Of a DNA stretch of 64,000 nt, positions 5,552 through 35,161 are shown in pieces. The stretch is from Flavobacterium sp. GSB-24 (GTDB lineage Bacteria; Bacteroidota; Bacteroidia; Flavobacteriales; Flavobacteriaceae): contig NZ_AP027043.1 in the NCBI RefSeq assembly GCF_027924665.1, positions 558,001 through 622,000 of the forward strand, in the 5' to 3' direction. The position numbers and the translations under genes were made by a program. A model generated the notes under the pieces. That model was not told the DNA's origin. It was given only the letters and a program-made list of their open reading frames with translations, and ran no database searches. Each line of letters opens with the position of its first letter. Within the stretch, counting starts at the first letter, position 1.

Positions 5552-5660
5552 CCTTTATCAAAGTTTAAAACTTTGACAAAGGTATGCGTGCAAGAAAGAA
5601 TCAAAAAAAAATCCCAAATCCCAATCATAAAAATTGGAATTTGGTCCCGAAGCCTCGGGA
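5552..5660. repeat. Cluster of three small hairpins
   Basis: Three palindromes are strung together. The first is CCTTTATCAAAGTTT / AAACTTTGACAAAGG (5552-5582, one mismatch). The second is CCAAATCCCAAT / ATTGGAATTTGG (5614-5644, one mismatch). The third is TCCCGAAGCCTCGGGA (5645-5660, perfect 6-bp stem). The last two word families recur elsewhere in the window. With the two larger repeats they fill the 5271-5684 gap, in which no gene is seen. Confidence 0.75.
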
Positions 5661-12923: not shown

Positions 12924-13009
12924 GAGTGCTCTAGCCCTGATCGAAGCGGCATCCTTTCTGTTTTTTCTTTAAAAACAGAAAGATACAGTGAAGAGCAGGA
13001 ATCCGCTTC
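12924..13009 (+). ncRNA. Possible structured RNA element upstream of asnS
   Basis: This block shows three complementary pairs. GCTCT (12928-12932) pairs with AGAGC (12992-12996). GAAGCGG (12943-12949) pairs with CCGCTTC (13003-13009). A central hairpin is TTTCTGTTTTT / AAAAACAGAAA (about 12955-12982). The first two pairs interleave, which would form a pseudoknot. The word GCCCTGATnGnAGCGG is familiar from intergenic sequences of Bacteroidota, and the arrangement could be a known motif such as Flavo-1; that identification is from memory and unverified. A 68-codon reading frame overlapping it looks non-coding. Confidence 0.4.
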
Positions 13010-21102: not shown

Positions 21103-22815
21103 ATGCGTTGGACCTTAAAACCAAAACCTTCTGAAGATAAAATCAAACATTTGGCGCAGGCCTTAAATGTAGAAGATTTTGTAGCAACACTTTTGATTCA
21201 GCGTGGTATTGAAACTTTTGAAGATGCGAAGAACTTCTTTCGCCCGTCTTTAGAACATCTACATGATCCGTATTTAATGAAAGATATGGACAAAGCTGTT
21301 GCTCGAATCGAAGCGGCAATTGAAAACCAGGAAAATATTATGGTTTTTGGCGATTATGATGTTGACGGAACAACAGCGGTTTCTTTGGTTTCTTCTTACT
21401 TAAAATCACATTATCCAAACATTGCCACGTATATTCCAGATCGTTATAACGAGGGTTACGGCATTTCGTATAAAGGAATTGATTATGCGGACGACAATGG
21501 AATTTCCTTAATTATCGCACTTGACTGTGGTATCAAATCGATTGATCATATCGCTTACGCGAAAGCGAAAAACATTGATTTCATTGTCTGCGATCACCAC
21601 AGGCCTGGAGAATTTCTTCCAGATGCCGTTGCAGTTCTTGACCCTAAAAGAGAAGACTGCTCCTACCCTTATGATGAATTATGCGGCTGCGGTGTTGGTT
21701 TTAAGTTGATTCAGGCTTTAGGTCAAAACCGAAATGAAACTATCGAAGATTTAGTTCCCTATCTGGATTTGGTCGCTACGGCAATTGCTGCCGATATTGT
21801 TCCAATTACTGGAGAAAACCGTGTTTTAGCTTATTTTGGCTTAAAAGTAATTAATTCAGAACCGAGACCTGGAATTAAAGCTTTGGTTCATCAGGTAAAA
21901 AAGAAAGTTCTCGATATTACAGATGTTGTTTTTATTATTTCACCGAGAATTAATGCTGCAGGAAGAATCAAACACGGAAATCATGCGGTTGAATTATTAA
22001 CTGAATTTGATTTTGAACAAGCACAGCAATTCGCTTCAGAAATTGAACAGTACAACGCAGACCGAAAAGATTTAGATAAAAAAATTACCAAAGAAGCTTT
22101 TCAGCAAATTTTAGAAAACAATGAAGAAGAACGTTTTTCTACCGTTGTTTTTCAAGAAGACTGGCACAAAGGTGTGATCGGGATCGTAGCTTCAAGATTA
22201 ATTGAAACTTATTATCGACCGACTTTAGTTTTTACCAAAAGCGGTGACAAATATGCTGCTTCTGCCCGATCTGTAAAAGGTTTTGATGTGTATAATGCGC
22301 TTGATGCTTGTTCCGAGCACTTAGAACAATTTGGAGGTCATATGTATGCAGCTGGAATGACTTTAAAAGCCGAAAATTATCAGCTTTTTAAAGAGGCTTT
22401 TGAGAAATGTGTGCAAGAAACCATTCAACCCGAAATGCGCACTCCAGAAATTGAAATCGATGCAGAGATAAACTTCTCAGACATCACTCCAAAATTGATT
22501 AGAATTTTAAAACAATTTGAACCTTTTGGTCCTCAAAATATGACTCCAGTTTTTATGACTTCTGATGTAAAGGATACGGGGTATGCCAAAACGCTGGGCT
22601 CAGAAGAAGAACATTTAAGACTTTTCGTCAAACAATCCCGAGGTCTCGGGAACGACGGAATAGCTGCAATTGGCTTTGGACTGGGAAAAAAACTCAATAT
22701 TGTACAAAATCAAAATCTGTTTCAATTGGCATACTGTATTGCCGAAAATGAATGGAACGGAAATATTTCAACACAGCTTATGCTGAAAGACATTAGAACA
22801 AATGGAAGAGATTAA
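21103..22815 (+). CDS. recJ: Single-stranded-DNA exonuclease RecJ
   Basis: RecJ degrades single-stranded DNA 5' to 3' in recombination and mismatch repair. The DHH domain shows 'VFGDYDVDGTTAVSL' (about 80-94), 'ALDCGIKS' and 'VCDHHRPG' (about 160-167), which carry the metal ligands. The DHHA1 domain follows with 'RINAAGRIKHGNHAVELL' and 'GGHMYAAGMTL', and a C-terminal OB-like domain closes it. At 570 residues it is complete. Near residue 514 the coding sequence includes the perfect palindrome TCCCGAGGTCTCGGGA, which encodes part of SRGLGN and looks like a recent insertion in a surface loop. The stop overlaps the following MFS gene by 14 bases. Confidence 0.95.
   Translation: MRWTLKPKPSEDKIKHLAQALNVEDFVATLLIQRGIETFEDAKNFFRPSLEHLHDPYLMKDMDKAVARIEAAIENQENIMVFGDYDVDGTTAVSLVSSYLKSHYPNIATYIPDRYNEGYGISYKGIDYADDNGISLIIALDCGIKSIDHIAYAKAKNIDFIVCDHHRPGEFLPDAVAVLDPKREDCSYPYDELCGCGVGFKLIQALGQNRNETIEDLVPYLDLVATAIAADIVPITGENRVLAYFGLKVINSEPRPGIKALVHQVKKKVLDITDVVFIISPRINAAGRIKHGNHAVELLTEFDFEQAQQFASEIEQYNADRKDLDKKITKEAFQQILENNEEERFSTVVFQEDWHKGVIGIVASRLIETYYRPTLVFTKSGDKYAASARSVKGFDVYNALDACSEHLEQFGGHMYAAGMTLKAENYQLFKEAFEKCVQETIQPEMRTPEIEIDAEINFSDITPKLIRILKQFEPFGPQNMTPVFMTSDVKDTGYAKTLGSEEEHLRLFVKQSRGLGNDGIAAIGFGLGKKLNIVQNQNLFQLAYCIAENEWNGNISTQLMLKDIRTNGRD
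22636..22651. repeat. TCCCGA-N4-TCGGGA palindrome inside recJ
   Basis: TCCCGAGGTCTCGGGA is a perfect 6-bp stem with a GGTC loop, in frame within recJ. Copies with other loops lie at 5645, 35090, 35131 and, with an extra base pair, in three tRNA-like sequences near 28.2-28.4 kb. Confidence 0.75.
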
Positions 22816-28100: not shown

Positions 28101-28205
28101 AAAAAATAGATTTAAACGTAAAGTTACGCTTTTGCAAAATATTTTGTCTGATTGATTTCTAAATTTGTTTTTTGAGAATTATTTGACTTTATTTGTTATG
28201 CTTTT

Positions 28206-28279
28206 GGGGGATTAGCTCATTTGGCTAGAGCGTCCCGATGAAAATCGGGAAGGTGACAGCTTGAATCCGACATTCTTCA
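28206..28279 (+). pseudogene. tRNA-like pseudogene 1 with a hairpin in place of the anticodon arm
   Basis: It begins GGGGGATTAGCTCATTTGGC, identical to the genuine tRNA-Ala at 28459 for the acceptor and D arms. The anticodon arm is replaced by TCCCGATGAAAATCGGGA (28233-28250), a 7-bp stem with a GAAA loop. The T arm (GACAGCTTGAATCCGAC) no longer pairs properly. It is not expected to be charged. Confidence 0.75.
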
Positions 28280-28290
28280 CAAAACAAAAG

Positions 28291-28364
28291 GGGGGATTAG
28301 CTCATTTGGCTAGAGTATCCCGATGAAAATCGGGAAGGTGACAGTTCAAATCCGATATTCTTCA
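28291..28364 (+). pseudogene. tRNA-like pseudogene 2
   Basis: This is the same design as copy 1, shifted 85 bases. It has the same GAAA-capped TCCCGAT hairpin at the anticodon position and a decayed T arm (ACAGTTCAAATCCGAT). It lies 11 bases after copy 1, separated by the spacer ACAAAACAAAAG. Confidence 0.75.
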
Positions 28365-28374
28365 CAAAACAAAA

Positions 28375-28448
28375 GGGGGATTAGCTCATTTGGCTAGAGT
28401 ATCCCGATGAAAATCGGGAAGGTGACAGTTCAAATCCGATATTCTTCA
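28375..28448 (+). pseudogene. tRNA-like pseudogene 3
   Basis: The copy is identical to copy 2 over its 74 bases and sits 84 bases downstream of it. The same spacer separates it from the functional tRNA-Ala. Confidence 0.75.
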
Positions 28449-28458
28449 CAAAACAAAA

Positions 28459-28532
28459 GGGGGATTAGCTCATTTGGCTAGAGTACTTGCCTGGCAGGCA
28501 AGGGGTGACCGGTTCGAATCCGGTATTCTCCA
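28459..28532 (+). tRNA. tRNA-Ala(GGC)
   Basis: A full cloverleaf can be drawn. The acceptor GGGGGAT pairs with ATTCTCC and includes the G3:U70 wobble that defines alanine tRNAs. The anticodon arm is CTTGC-CTGGCAG-GCAAG (anticodon GGC) and the T arm is ACCGG-TTCGAAT-CCGGT. The CCA end is not encoded. It is the only member of the four-copy array with a normal anticodon and T arm. Confidence 0.92.
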
Positions 28533-28545
28533 CTAATAATTAAAA

Positions 28546-28582
28546 AAATACCCAAACAGATATTGATTCTGTTTGGGTATTT
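28546..28582 (+). terminator. Terminator after tRNA-Ala
   Basis: AAATACCCAAACAGA / TCTGTTTGGGTATTT with a 7-base loop lies between the tRNA and the nuclease gene. Confidence 0.7.
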
Positions 28583-28598
28583 TCATTTATATCAAACT

Positions 28599-28847
28599 AT
28601 GTTTTACACTTATATTTTATATTCTTCTTCACTGAATAAATATTATATTGGATCTTGCCAAAATATCGAACAACGTCTAAATTATCATTTAAACAGCAGA
28701 AGTAAATTTACAAGAACAGCTAAGGATTGGAAAATAAAATATTTCGAAACTTTTCATACAAGAAGTGAAGCTTACCACAGAGAAATGCAAATTAAAAAAA
28801 TGAAAAGTAGAAAATACATTGAGAATCTTATAGCTACAAAAGGCTAA
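28599..28847 (+). CDS. Single-domain GIY-YIG nuclease
   Basis: The 82-residue protein is a minimal GIY-YIG (URI) domain: 'YTYILYS' and 'YYIGS' give the GIY and YIG strands. The likely catalytic residues are R26 (EQRLNYH), E62 (YHREMQ) and N76 (IENLI). I use the ATG at 28599; a frame opening at 28563 adds 12 residues that overlap the terminator. The last codons, GGC then TAA, fall in sequence matching the tRNA D-loop word GGCTAGAG, so the stop lies in tRNA-derived DNA. Such small nucleases are frequent in Bacteroidota genomes; their role is not settled, and mobility is inference. Confidence 0.85.
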   Translation: MFYTYILYSSSLNKYYIGSCQNIEQRLNYHLNSRSKFTRTAKDWKIKYFETFHTRSEAYHREMQIKKMKSRKYIENLIATKG

Positions 28848-28896
28848 AGTATCCCATGGATCGGGAAGGCGATCGGTTCGAATCCGATATTCTCCA
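28842..28896 (+). pseudogene. 3' part of a tRNA-like sequence after the nuclease gene
   Basis: From GGCTAAAGTATCCC onward the sequence follows the tRNA-like copies. It has a damaged TCCC...GGGA arm, then an intact T arm (ATCGG-TTCGAAT-CCGAT) and the acceptor strand ATTCTCC plus A. The 5' half (acceptor strand and D stem) is missing and is replaced by the end of the nuclease frame. Confidence 0.7.
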
Positions 28897-28899
28897 CAG

Positions 28900-28929
28900 A
28901 AACCGTATTACTTAGTTGTGATACGGTTT
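28900..28929 (+). terminator. Terminator hairpin
   Basis: AAACCGTAT / ATACGGTTT with a 12-base loop is followed by a T run directly after the tRNA fragment. Nothing else is recognised up to 29135. Confidence 0.65.
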
Positions 28930-29135
28930 TTTATTTAGATAGCGACAAAAAACGTAGAATGGAAATTTAAACTTCAACAATAGCCTTTTGCATTAATATC
29001 TAATAGCAGAATTACAGCTTTTAAAAGACAACCTGCACAAATAAAAACATTTTTAAGTAACTTACATTAAATTATAACCTTAGCAAAATTTAAGCTTTAC
29101 CATACAAATTACTAATCTGTAAAATCGACTTAAAA

Positions 29136-35074: not shown

Positions 35075-35161
35075 TTGTCAAGCTGAGCGTCCCGAGACTT
35101 CGGGAGAAACCCGCCCCTATTATGTCCTTCTCCCGAAGTCTCGGGACGCTCAGCTTGACAA
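35075..35161. repeat. Long perfect inverted repeat (34-bp arms), GCTGAGCG type
   Basis: Arms 35075-35108 and 35128-35161 are perfect reverse complements (TTGTCAAGCTGAGCGTCCCG inward) with a 19-base loop. Each arm contains its own TCCCGA-N4-TCGGGA palindrome (35090-35105 and 35131-35146). It lies between divergent genes. Confidence 0.88.

Follow-up and report, generated by a model that had tools for sequence, protein, structure and literature searches.

Upstream of an intact tRNA-Ala(GGC) gene in the Flavobacterium sp. GSB-24 chromosome lie three tRNA-like copies in which a palindrome takes the place of the anticodon arm. We conclude that these probably, though far from certainly, derive from a tRNA-Ala(GGC) gene that was split, at the anticodon arm, by a mobile GIY-YIG element, which carries a complete tRNA-Ala and a terminator. 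Comparison between loci and genomes shows that this architecture recurs at many tRNA types in Bacteroidota and that nuclease clade is tied to tRNA type; it also shows insert-free loci and an enrichment of palindromes in genomes with the nuclease.

The tRNA-Ala(GGC) locus

The window, the whole stretch of 64,000 nucleotides that was analysed, contains three tRNA-Ala(GGC)-like copies at 28206-28449 on the forward strand, where every other feature given below for this locus also lies. They occupy 28206-28280, 28291-28365 and 28375-28449 (spacing 85 and 84 nt), the third being identical to the second. In all three, the 17-nt anticodon arm CTTGCCTGGCAGGCAAG is swapped exactly for an 18-nt palindrome, TCCCGATGAAAATCGGGA (28233-28250, 28318-28335 and 28402-28419), and within the window this exact 18-mer is confined to the copies. 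The 25 nt at the 5' end are those of the real tRNA-Ala in each copy, while 17, 19 and 19 of the last 22 nt are identical to it and the T arm has lost one base and its pairing. An earlier note, made from the sequence alone, had claimed three such copies with these starts and this spacing, a matching acceptor and D side, a swapped anticodon arm and a broken T arm; alignment to the real tRNA-Ala bears this out. The copies score 32.5, 35.1 and 35.1 bits against the Rfam tRNA model, above its gathering cut-off of 29 bits, as compared with 57.3 bits for the real gene, which is the sole tRNA called by ARAGORN in this region (28459-28533). They lack two parts of a functional tRNA, an anticodon arm with a 7-nt loop and an intact T arm, and when folded singly they did not favour the cloverleaf. 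Chance was ruled out as their origin, as TCCCGATNNNNATCGGGA, with up to two mismatches, occurs three times, against a mean of 0.15 in 100 shuffles, none of which reached three. The idea that the hairpin loop is a new anticodon was also rejected, as its length and sequence differ from locus to locus.

The sequence TTTATTTG (28188-28195), which we take from its consensus to be a promoter-like -7 motif, lies 18 nt before copy 1. A second such motif is found at 28160 and none between copy 1 and 28600, so that the copies are likely, to judge from these motifs, to be transcribed by read-through from upstream. The same motif class is present 17-21 nt before the tRNA in all eight of the empty (insert-free) loci examined. 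The complete tRNA-Ala(GGC), identified by both ARAGORN and Rfam, is followed by a terminator-like hairpin (28545-28583), a 16-nt perfect inverted repeat with similar counterparts in many filled Ala loci, and then by the gene for an 82-residue GIY-YIG nuclease (28599-28847). Beyond the nuclease gene is a fourth, right-hand copy, which begins with a decayed palindrome, TCCCATGGATCGGGA (28852-28866), in the position where relatives have TCCCGATGCATCGGGA. It continues with a tRNA 3' half (28867-28897) that shares 27 of its last 30 nt with the tRNA, the 5' half being lost, and a second hairpin, terminator-like in sequence, lies 3' of it (28900-28930). The only open reading frame of at least 40 codons between 28206 and 28930 is that of the nuclease, and the insert contains no integrase gene. 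The nuclease gene and the fourth copy (28852-28897) did not figure in the earlier note.

Identification of the nuclease rests on a PF01541 match of 55.7 bits, which covers the catalytic domain, together with alignments, a structure model and fold matches. Catalytic-type residues are intact in an alignment of 43 nuclease proteins. Neither Pfam nor the compact predicted structure (pLDDT 93.8) contains a domain beyond GIY-YIG, and hence a separate DNA-binding domain is absent. The nearest solved relatives by sequence are the UPF0213 proteins BH0048 (1zg2, E 1.2e-8) and EF2693 (1ywl, E 3.4e-8). Fold matches of the model were weak, none falling below E 0.001, with 1zg2 best, followed by I-TevI and Slx1. 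The gene is intergenic, between the tRNA terminator and the tRNA remnant, and outside any intron or intein. A search of 50,697 phage records revealed no relative; carriage by a phage or plasmid was rejected for want of a match, one viral contig having come up besides.

Hairpin-bearing tRNA copies and intact tRNA genes in Bacteroidota

Relatives were fetched by nuclease alignment alone, the presence of a tRNA not being a criterion, and the best 80 of 354 from named genomes were taken, so that Ala-type members are over-represented. Among these best 80, a same-strand tRNA was found within 400 nt upstream of the nuclease gene in 66 and any tRNA within 500 nt in 70; in five the contig starts less than 300 nt from the gene. 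A hairpin of at least 6 bp was present between positions -30 and +45 of the stop codon in 65 of the best 80, as compared with a mean of 9.9 and a maximum of 18 in shuffled sequence, and in 49 the stop-codon hairpin was of the TCCCGA type. Twelve loci fetched by palindrome pattern were excluded from these 80-locus association counts. The relatives come from Flavobacteriaceae, Chitinophagaceae, Cyclobacteriaceae, Hymenobacteraceae, Crocinitomicaceae and Sphingobacteriaceae. Among 20 more distant loci from the genus Flavobacterium a tRNA was called in 19, and a scripted comparison found a hairpin whose right flank matches a tRNA in 16, with L179 matched to the wrong place; L176 and L184 had no such hairpin, and L174 had hairpins and no tRNA call. 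Another 20 loci, judged by eye, included 16 with a hairpin at the remnant. The order is mirrored in L144, L149 and L188, where a palindrome precedes the GIY-YIG gene and an intact tRNA (Gly or Pro) follows it; in L188 the palindrome sits in a tRNA-Pro 5' half.

The replaced segment depends on the tRNA. In remnants of tRNA-Ala, -Val, -Arg, -Pro and -Lys the hairpin stands exactly in place of the entire 17-nt anticodon arm. In Phe remnants it takes the place of five T-loop bases, as does a second hairpin in several Ala remnants, and in most measurable Asn, Met and Asp remnants the stretch replaced, close to the variable loop, is 5, 10 and 12 bases long, respectively. Variant stems still pair (TCCCGC..GCGGGA, TTCCGA..TCGGAA, TCACGC..GCGTGA), which indicates that the hairpin or dyad itself is conserved. 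Some relative loci have decayed palindromes and broken nuclease genes. Such copies can mislead a gene finder: ARAGORN called hairpin-substituted copies tRNA-Lys(TTT) or suppressor tRNA (L026, L027 and L147), and broken tRNAs were miscalled tRNA-Lys, tRNA-Phe(AAA) or suppressor tRNA, so that annotations of this kind in Bacteroidota may be false.

Left copies occur at 28 loci, the window included, with one to seven per locus. Of these 53 copies, 47 match the intact tRNA of the same locus over the 21 nt before the arm, and none has the 14-nt tRNA 3' end exact; right copies show the opposite pattern. This bears on the earlier proposal that a mobile palindrome replaced the arm and was then amplified. 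That proposal holds in so far as a palindrome of the dispersed type occupies the arm and the copies have multiplied, and changes in that the copies now appear to be the 5'-half side of a tRNA gene split by an element with a complete tRNA and a GIY-YIG nuclease. When the T stems of the intact tRNA and the right copy were compared, the pattern used fitted just two loci, and the comparison was set aside.

A tRNA-Ala(GGC) gene was present in 11 of 30 nuclease-free Flavobacterium genomes, and in none of the 11 did a split copy adjoin it. Many nuclease-free genomes have no close tRNA-Ala(GGC) (G003, G018, G020, G041, G055, G058, G072, G076, G087, G120 and G123 are examples), yielding either a 77-84% match, probably tRNA-Ala(TGC), or nothing; tRNA-Ala(GGC) may be dispensable. 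One empty locus, L195, has an enoyl-CoA hydratase homologue nearby and an upstream region similar to that of filled loci. Its terminator is of the type found 3' of the right copy in seven filled loci, with a variant in an eighth, and differs in type from the terminator between the intact tRNA and the nuclease gene. This places the resident 3' end and terminator downstream of the insert at those loci, and implies that the insert brings a complete tRNA. At the other filled loci, including that in the window, the terminator after the right copy matches no empty locus compared, and the other three empty loci with an enoyl-CoA hydratase neighbour have other terminator types. In a further empty locus, L200, two palindromes lie further downstream, outside the tRNA sequence. 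The enoyl-CoA hydratase homologue is found near 43 named loci, most filled Ala loci having a common chromosomal neighbourhood.

In 32 of 44 filled loci the intact tRNA-Ala has an anticodon arm unlike that of the empty loci, with pairing kept; none of the 11 empty loci shows such a change, as would be expected for a resistant allele. In contrast, tRNA-Val has the same sequence, with an unchanged arm, whether or not the nuclease is present at the locus, and a second intact tRNA-Val copy coexists with the nuclease in, for example, G017, G032 and G080. A cut site wholly within the tRNA is therefore doubtful.

Nuclease clades and dispersed palindromes

In a tree of 116 nuclease proteins, which included the 12 loci fetched by palindrome pattern, tRNA type required 13 changes, close to the minimum of 9; the mean for shuffled labels was 54.8 and none of 200 shuffles was as low, without correction for kinship. 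The tree is built on few columns, many of its forks are weak, and its tRNA labels were partly set by hand for remnants with no called tRNA. The Lys, Met, Asp and Phe nucleases each form a single, starred set.

Palindrome numbers vary with the nuclease. The 150 Flavobacterium genomes contain between 0 and 248 TCCCGA palindromes, with a median of 24.5 in the 120 nuclease-positive genomes (those with an A1 match of E 1e-8 or lower, whatever the tRNA linkage) and of 5 in the 30 nuclease-free ones. The partial rank correlation with the nuclease, given genome size, was 0.48, and both comparisons are uncorrected for kinship. Three nuclease-free genomes are nevertheless rich in these palindromes (41, 45 and 52). 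The raw genome-survey pattern, which also matches the native tRNA-Asp arm, was found in 57 of the 120 nuclease-positive genomes and in 1 of the 30 nuclease-free ones; with seven genomes that have the native tRNA-Asp arm only set aside by hand, the figures were 50 and 1. The nuclease-free exception, G111, has a non-tRNA site and the native tRNA-Asp arm. In many Flavobacterium (as at L033, L036, L043 and L049) the anticodon arm of the native tRNA-Asp(GTC) itself has a TCCCGA..TCGGGA stem, which may be a source or a coincidence. Across the phylum the TCCCGA palindrome occurs in 107 of 118 genomes, its number being near that of the control in many.

Asp-type remnants carry TCTCGT palindromes and Met-type remnants TCCGCC palindromes. 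Genome-wide, TCTCGT palindromes numbered 9, 14, 10, 17, 21 and 6 in Asp-type genomes as against 0 to 7 in fourteen others, without kinship correction; G015 had been moved into the Asp group after inspection of its locus, and the original five gave 9 to 21 as against 0 to 7 in fifteen. The median number of TCCGCC palindromes was 5.5 in ten Met-type genomes and 0.5 in sixteen others, again uncorrected for kinship, with type and presence confounded because 14 of the 16 have no such nuclease; the groups overlap, Met-type G025 having 1 and nuclease-free G055 having 7. Comparison genomes were classed by the nuclease matches listed, and the counts include the nuclease loci themselves.

The palindrome had been described in the earlier note as a dispersed repeat, and its stem, TCCCGA..TCGGGA, does recur elsewhere in the window, at 5645, 22636, 35090 and 35131, and 90 times in the genome, as compared with 1 for a reversed-pattern control. 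The palindrome at 22636-22651, TCCCGAGGTCTCGGGA, lies within coding-looking sequence, and the two at 35090-35146 are in inverted order within a longer inverted repeat (GTCAAGCTGAGCG... / ...CGCTCAGCTTGAC). The window also contains, at 12929-13006, a Flavo-1 RNA (RF01705, 72.8 bits), a known small RNA family of Flavobacteria. Of 48 dispersed palindromes, 8 have 3-bp direct flank repeats (1.95 in shuffled sequence) and 6 lie inside larger inverted repeats of at least 6 bp (0.93 in shuffled sequence), the commonest flank being CTA on both sides (6 of 48). The flank repeats hint at insertion, short of proof.

Further tRNA genes of this genome have remnants. Four GIY-YIG genes stand in tandem downstream of tRNA-Phe, and at the end of each is a 3' remnant of tRNA-Phe; the T-loop palindrome TCCCGAAGCCTCGGGA is exact in three of these four and has one base changed in the first. 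This locus (L025, C1:1423000-1428500) consists of four tandem units of ~381 bp, each a terminator, a GIY-YIG gene and a tRNA-Phe 3' remnant. Three remnants lie behind one tRNA-Pro, with the palindrome exact in two and mutated in one, and one hairpin copy lies in front of a second; two tRNA-Arg sites have two copies and one copy. No nuclease gene lies alongside these tRNA-Pro and tRNA-Arg remnants.

The scatter of palindromes away from tRNAs, their direct and inverted flanks and the three palindrome-rich nuclease-free genomes would all fit independent repeats, REP-like or GC-cluster-like, that land in hairpin-prone DNA and are tolerated by dead tRNA copies, the GIY-YIG gene being merely near tRNA duplications. 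We consider this unlikely, given that the arm is replaced exactly in five tRNA types, that in most loci the palindrome has a fixed position after the stop codon of the nuclease gene and that palindrome type tracks nuclease type. The genome has, moreover, just two Y1 transposase genes; neither 3.3 kb locus contains the TCCCGA/TCGGGA pair, one having a lone TCCCGA, and a RAYT was thus ruled out as the mobiliser.

It is also rather improbable that the loci are inert debris, old tandem tRNA duplications with a nuclease gene that were inherited vertically and are now immobile and inactive. The shared neighbourhood of Ala-type loci, the decay of palindromes and nuclease genes at some loci and the remnants without a nuclease in this genome are consistent with such a history. 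They contrast with the intact catalytic-type residues in 43 proteins, the hairpins maintained through paired changes in several families, the scattered empty loci and the variable number of copies in the arrays.

An RNA-level system, in which the nuclease attacks a tRNA at its anticodon arm and is countered by tRNA-shaped RNAs of matching type, acting as decoys or antitoxins, would account for the copies being of the same type as the adjoining tRNA and for the arm being the part replaced; the copies are, on the motif evidence, likely to be transcribed. Type III toxin-antitoxin loci have tandem repeats before a nuclease gene, and the repeats 5' of the nuclease gene here resemble them. Left copies are absent, however, at many loci, right copies, lacking the 5' half, have no tRNA shape, left copies have a decayed 3' half and the folds do not favour a cloverleaf. 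We know of no RNA-cutting GIY-YIG enzyme, and regard this system as very improbable. Near-identical short tandem copies are a known hazard of assembly, and the earlier note had raised misassembly, yet such left copies occur at 28 loci, taken from different records, which rules out assembly error as the source of the architecture, and the window lies within a 5.29 Mb contig, which leaves an artefact at a collapsed or duplicated repeat with next to no likelihood.

Proposed mechanism and known systems

The reading we favour is thus a tRNA gene split by a mobile GIY-YIG element. The left copies would be the tRNA 5' half, directly behind the promoter, and the right copy, past the nuclease gene, the 3' half, the gap in each being filled by a palindrome belonging to that nuclease family. 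The nuclease would cut the tRNA gene, the element would be copied in by break repair, as for SegB, and the complete tRNA that it carries would rescue the host cell. The palindrome might disarm or mark cut sites, or be moved by the nuclease, and the left array would be enlarged by unequal recombination. Cleavage, homing, transcription and palindrome movement are steps that we infer from the arrangement of the loci. Several observations count against a split by such an element: tRNA-Val is unchanged, the nuclease has no extra domain, three nuclease-free genomes contain 41 to 52 palindromes, tRNA-Pro and tRNA-Arg remnants in this genome have no nuclease, and the terminator after the right copy in the window and other filled loci is unseen in the empty loci compared. 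The common neighbourhood of most filled Ala loci fits vertical descent as well as homing. Given tRNA-Val, the target may extend to sequence outside the tRNA, the enzyme may cut its own allele weakly, or it may be structure that the enzyme acts on.

In its general form our proposal is tentative, and we put it at somewhat less than an even chance: a minimal 82-residue nuclease, with neither transposase nor integrase, and a family-specific palindrome would together split a chosen tRNA gene within one arm, make good its function through the complete tRNA carried along and seed the palindrome at other chromosomal sites, with clades across Bacteroidota having their own tRNAs and some their own palindromes. 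If true, this would be a widespread, overlooked class of tRNA-linked mobile element in a large bacterial group; it would offer a testable origin for some of the short palindromes dispersed in these genomes, and in many species enzyme, target and scar could be compared directly. A search of open-licence PubMed Central turned up neither GIY-YIG genes linked to tRNAs on Bacteroidota chromosomes nor tRNAs with a replaced arm, and no occurrence of any of six palindrome strings.

In REP/RAYT systems, too, an enzyme family goes with short palindromes that are scattered over a single genome. Here, unlike in those systems, the enzyme is of the GIY-YIG type, palindromes lie inside tRNA copies and the Y1 genes have no adjoining palindrome. 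The end of a REP palindrome is described as carrying a GTAG or CGTC tag (PMC3733652). Predicted REPs are tabulated for two Flavobacterium species by RepRanger (PMC12306157), so that palindromic repeats in themselves are already on record for the genus. Mitochondrial DNA has mobile GC-rich hairpins, among them yeast GC clusters (PMC4478555) and the sponge RHE (PMC2800124). The palindromes would resemble these in being short mobile hairpins in intergenic DNA. For the mitochondrial hairpins we know of no splitting of tRNAs with a rescuing tRNA and a linked nuclease. The nuclease itself is most like the small GIY-YIG proteins of UPF0213, which include its nearest solved relatives and its best fold match (1zg2). 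To our knowledge, these proteins have no link with tRNAs or palindromes.

The closest parallel is SegB of phages T4 and T6, a GIY-YIG homing endonuclease that is free-standing and lies in a cluster of tRNA genes (PMC13096335, PMC2988022). SegB is reported to act on a tRNA locus and to promote tandem tRNA-segB repeats, likely with the help of microhomology between the 5' region of the tRNA and the 3' end of segB (PMC13096335), where it is also stated that free-standing GIY-YIG enzymes may cut their own allele weakly. As with SegB, the nuclease gene adjoins tRNA genes and at its 3' end leads into the 5' half of a tRNA; as with homing endonucleases of that kind, the target gene has filled and empty alleles, the clade following tRNA type and 11 tRNA-Ala loci being empty. 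SegB is a phage enzyme, whereas the nuclease described here is chromosomal, has 82 residues and has no further domain. Palindromes and split tRNAs do not figure in the passages on SegB that were compared, and the string 'palindrom' occurs zero times in those of PMC13096335. We suggest that the element would work like a free-standing homing endonuclease, differing in its lack of a separate DNA-binding domain and in the addition of split tRNAs and cognate palindromes.
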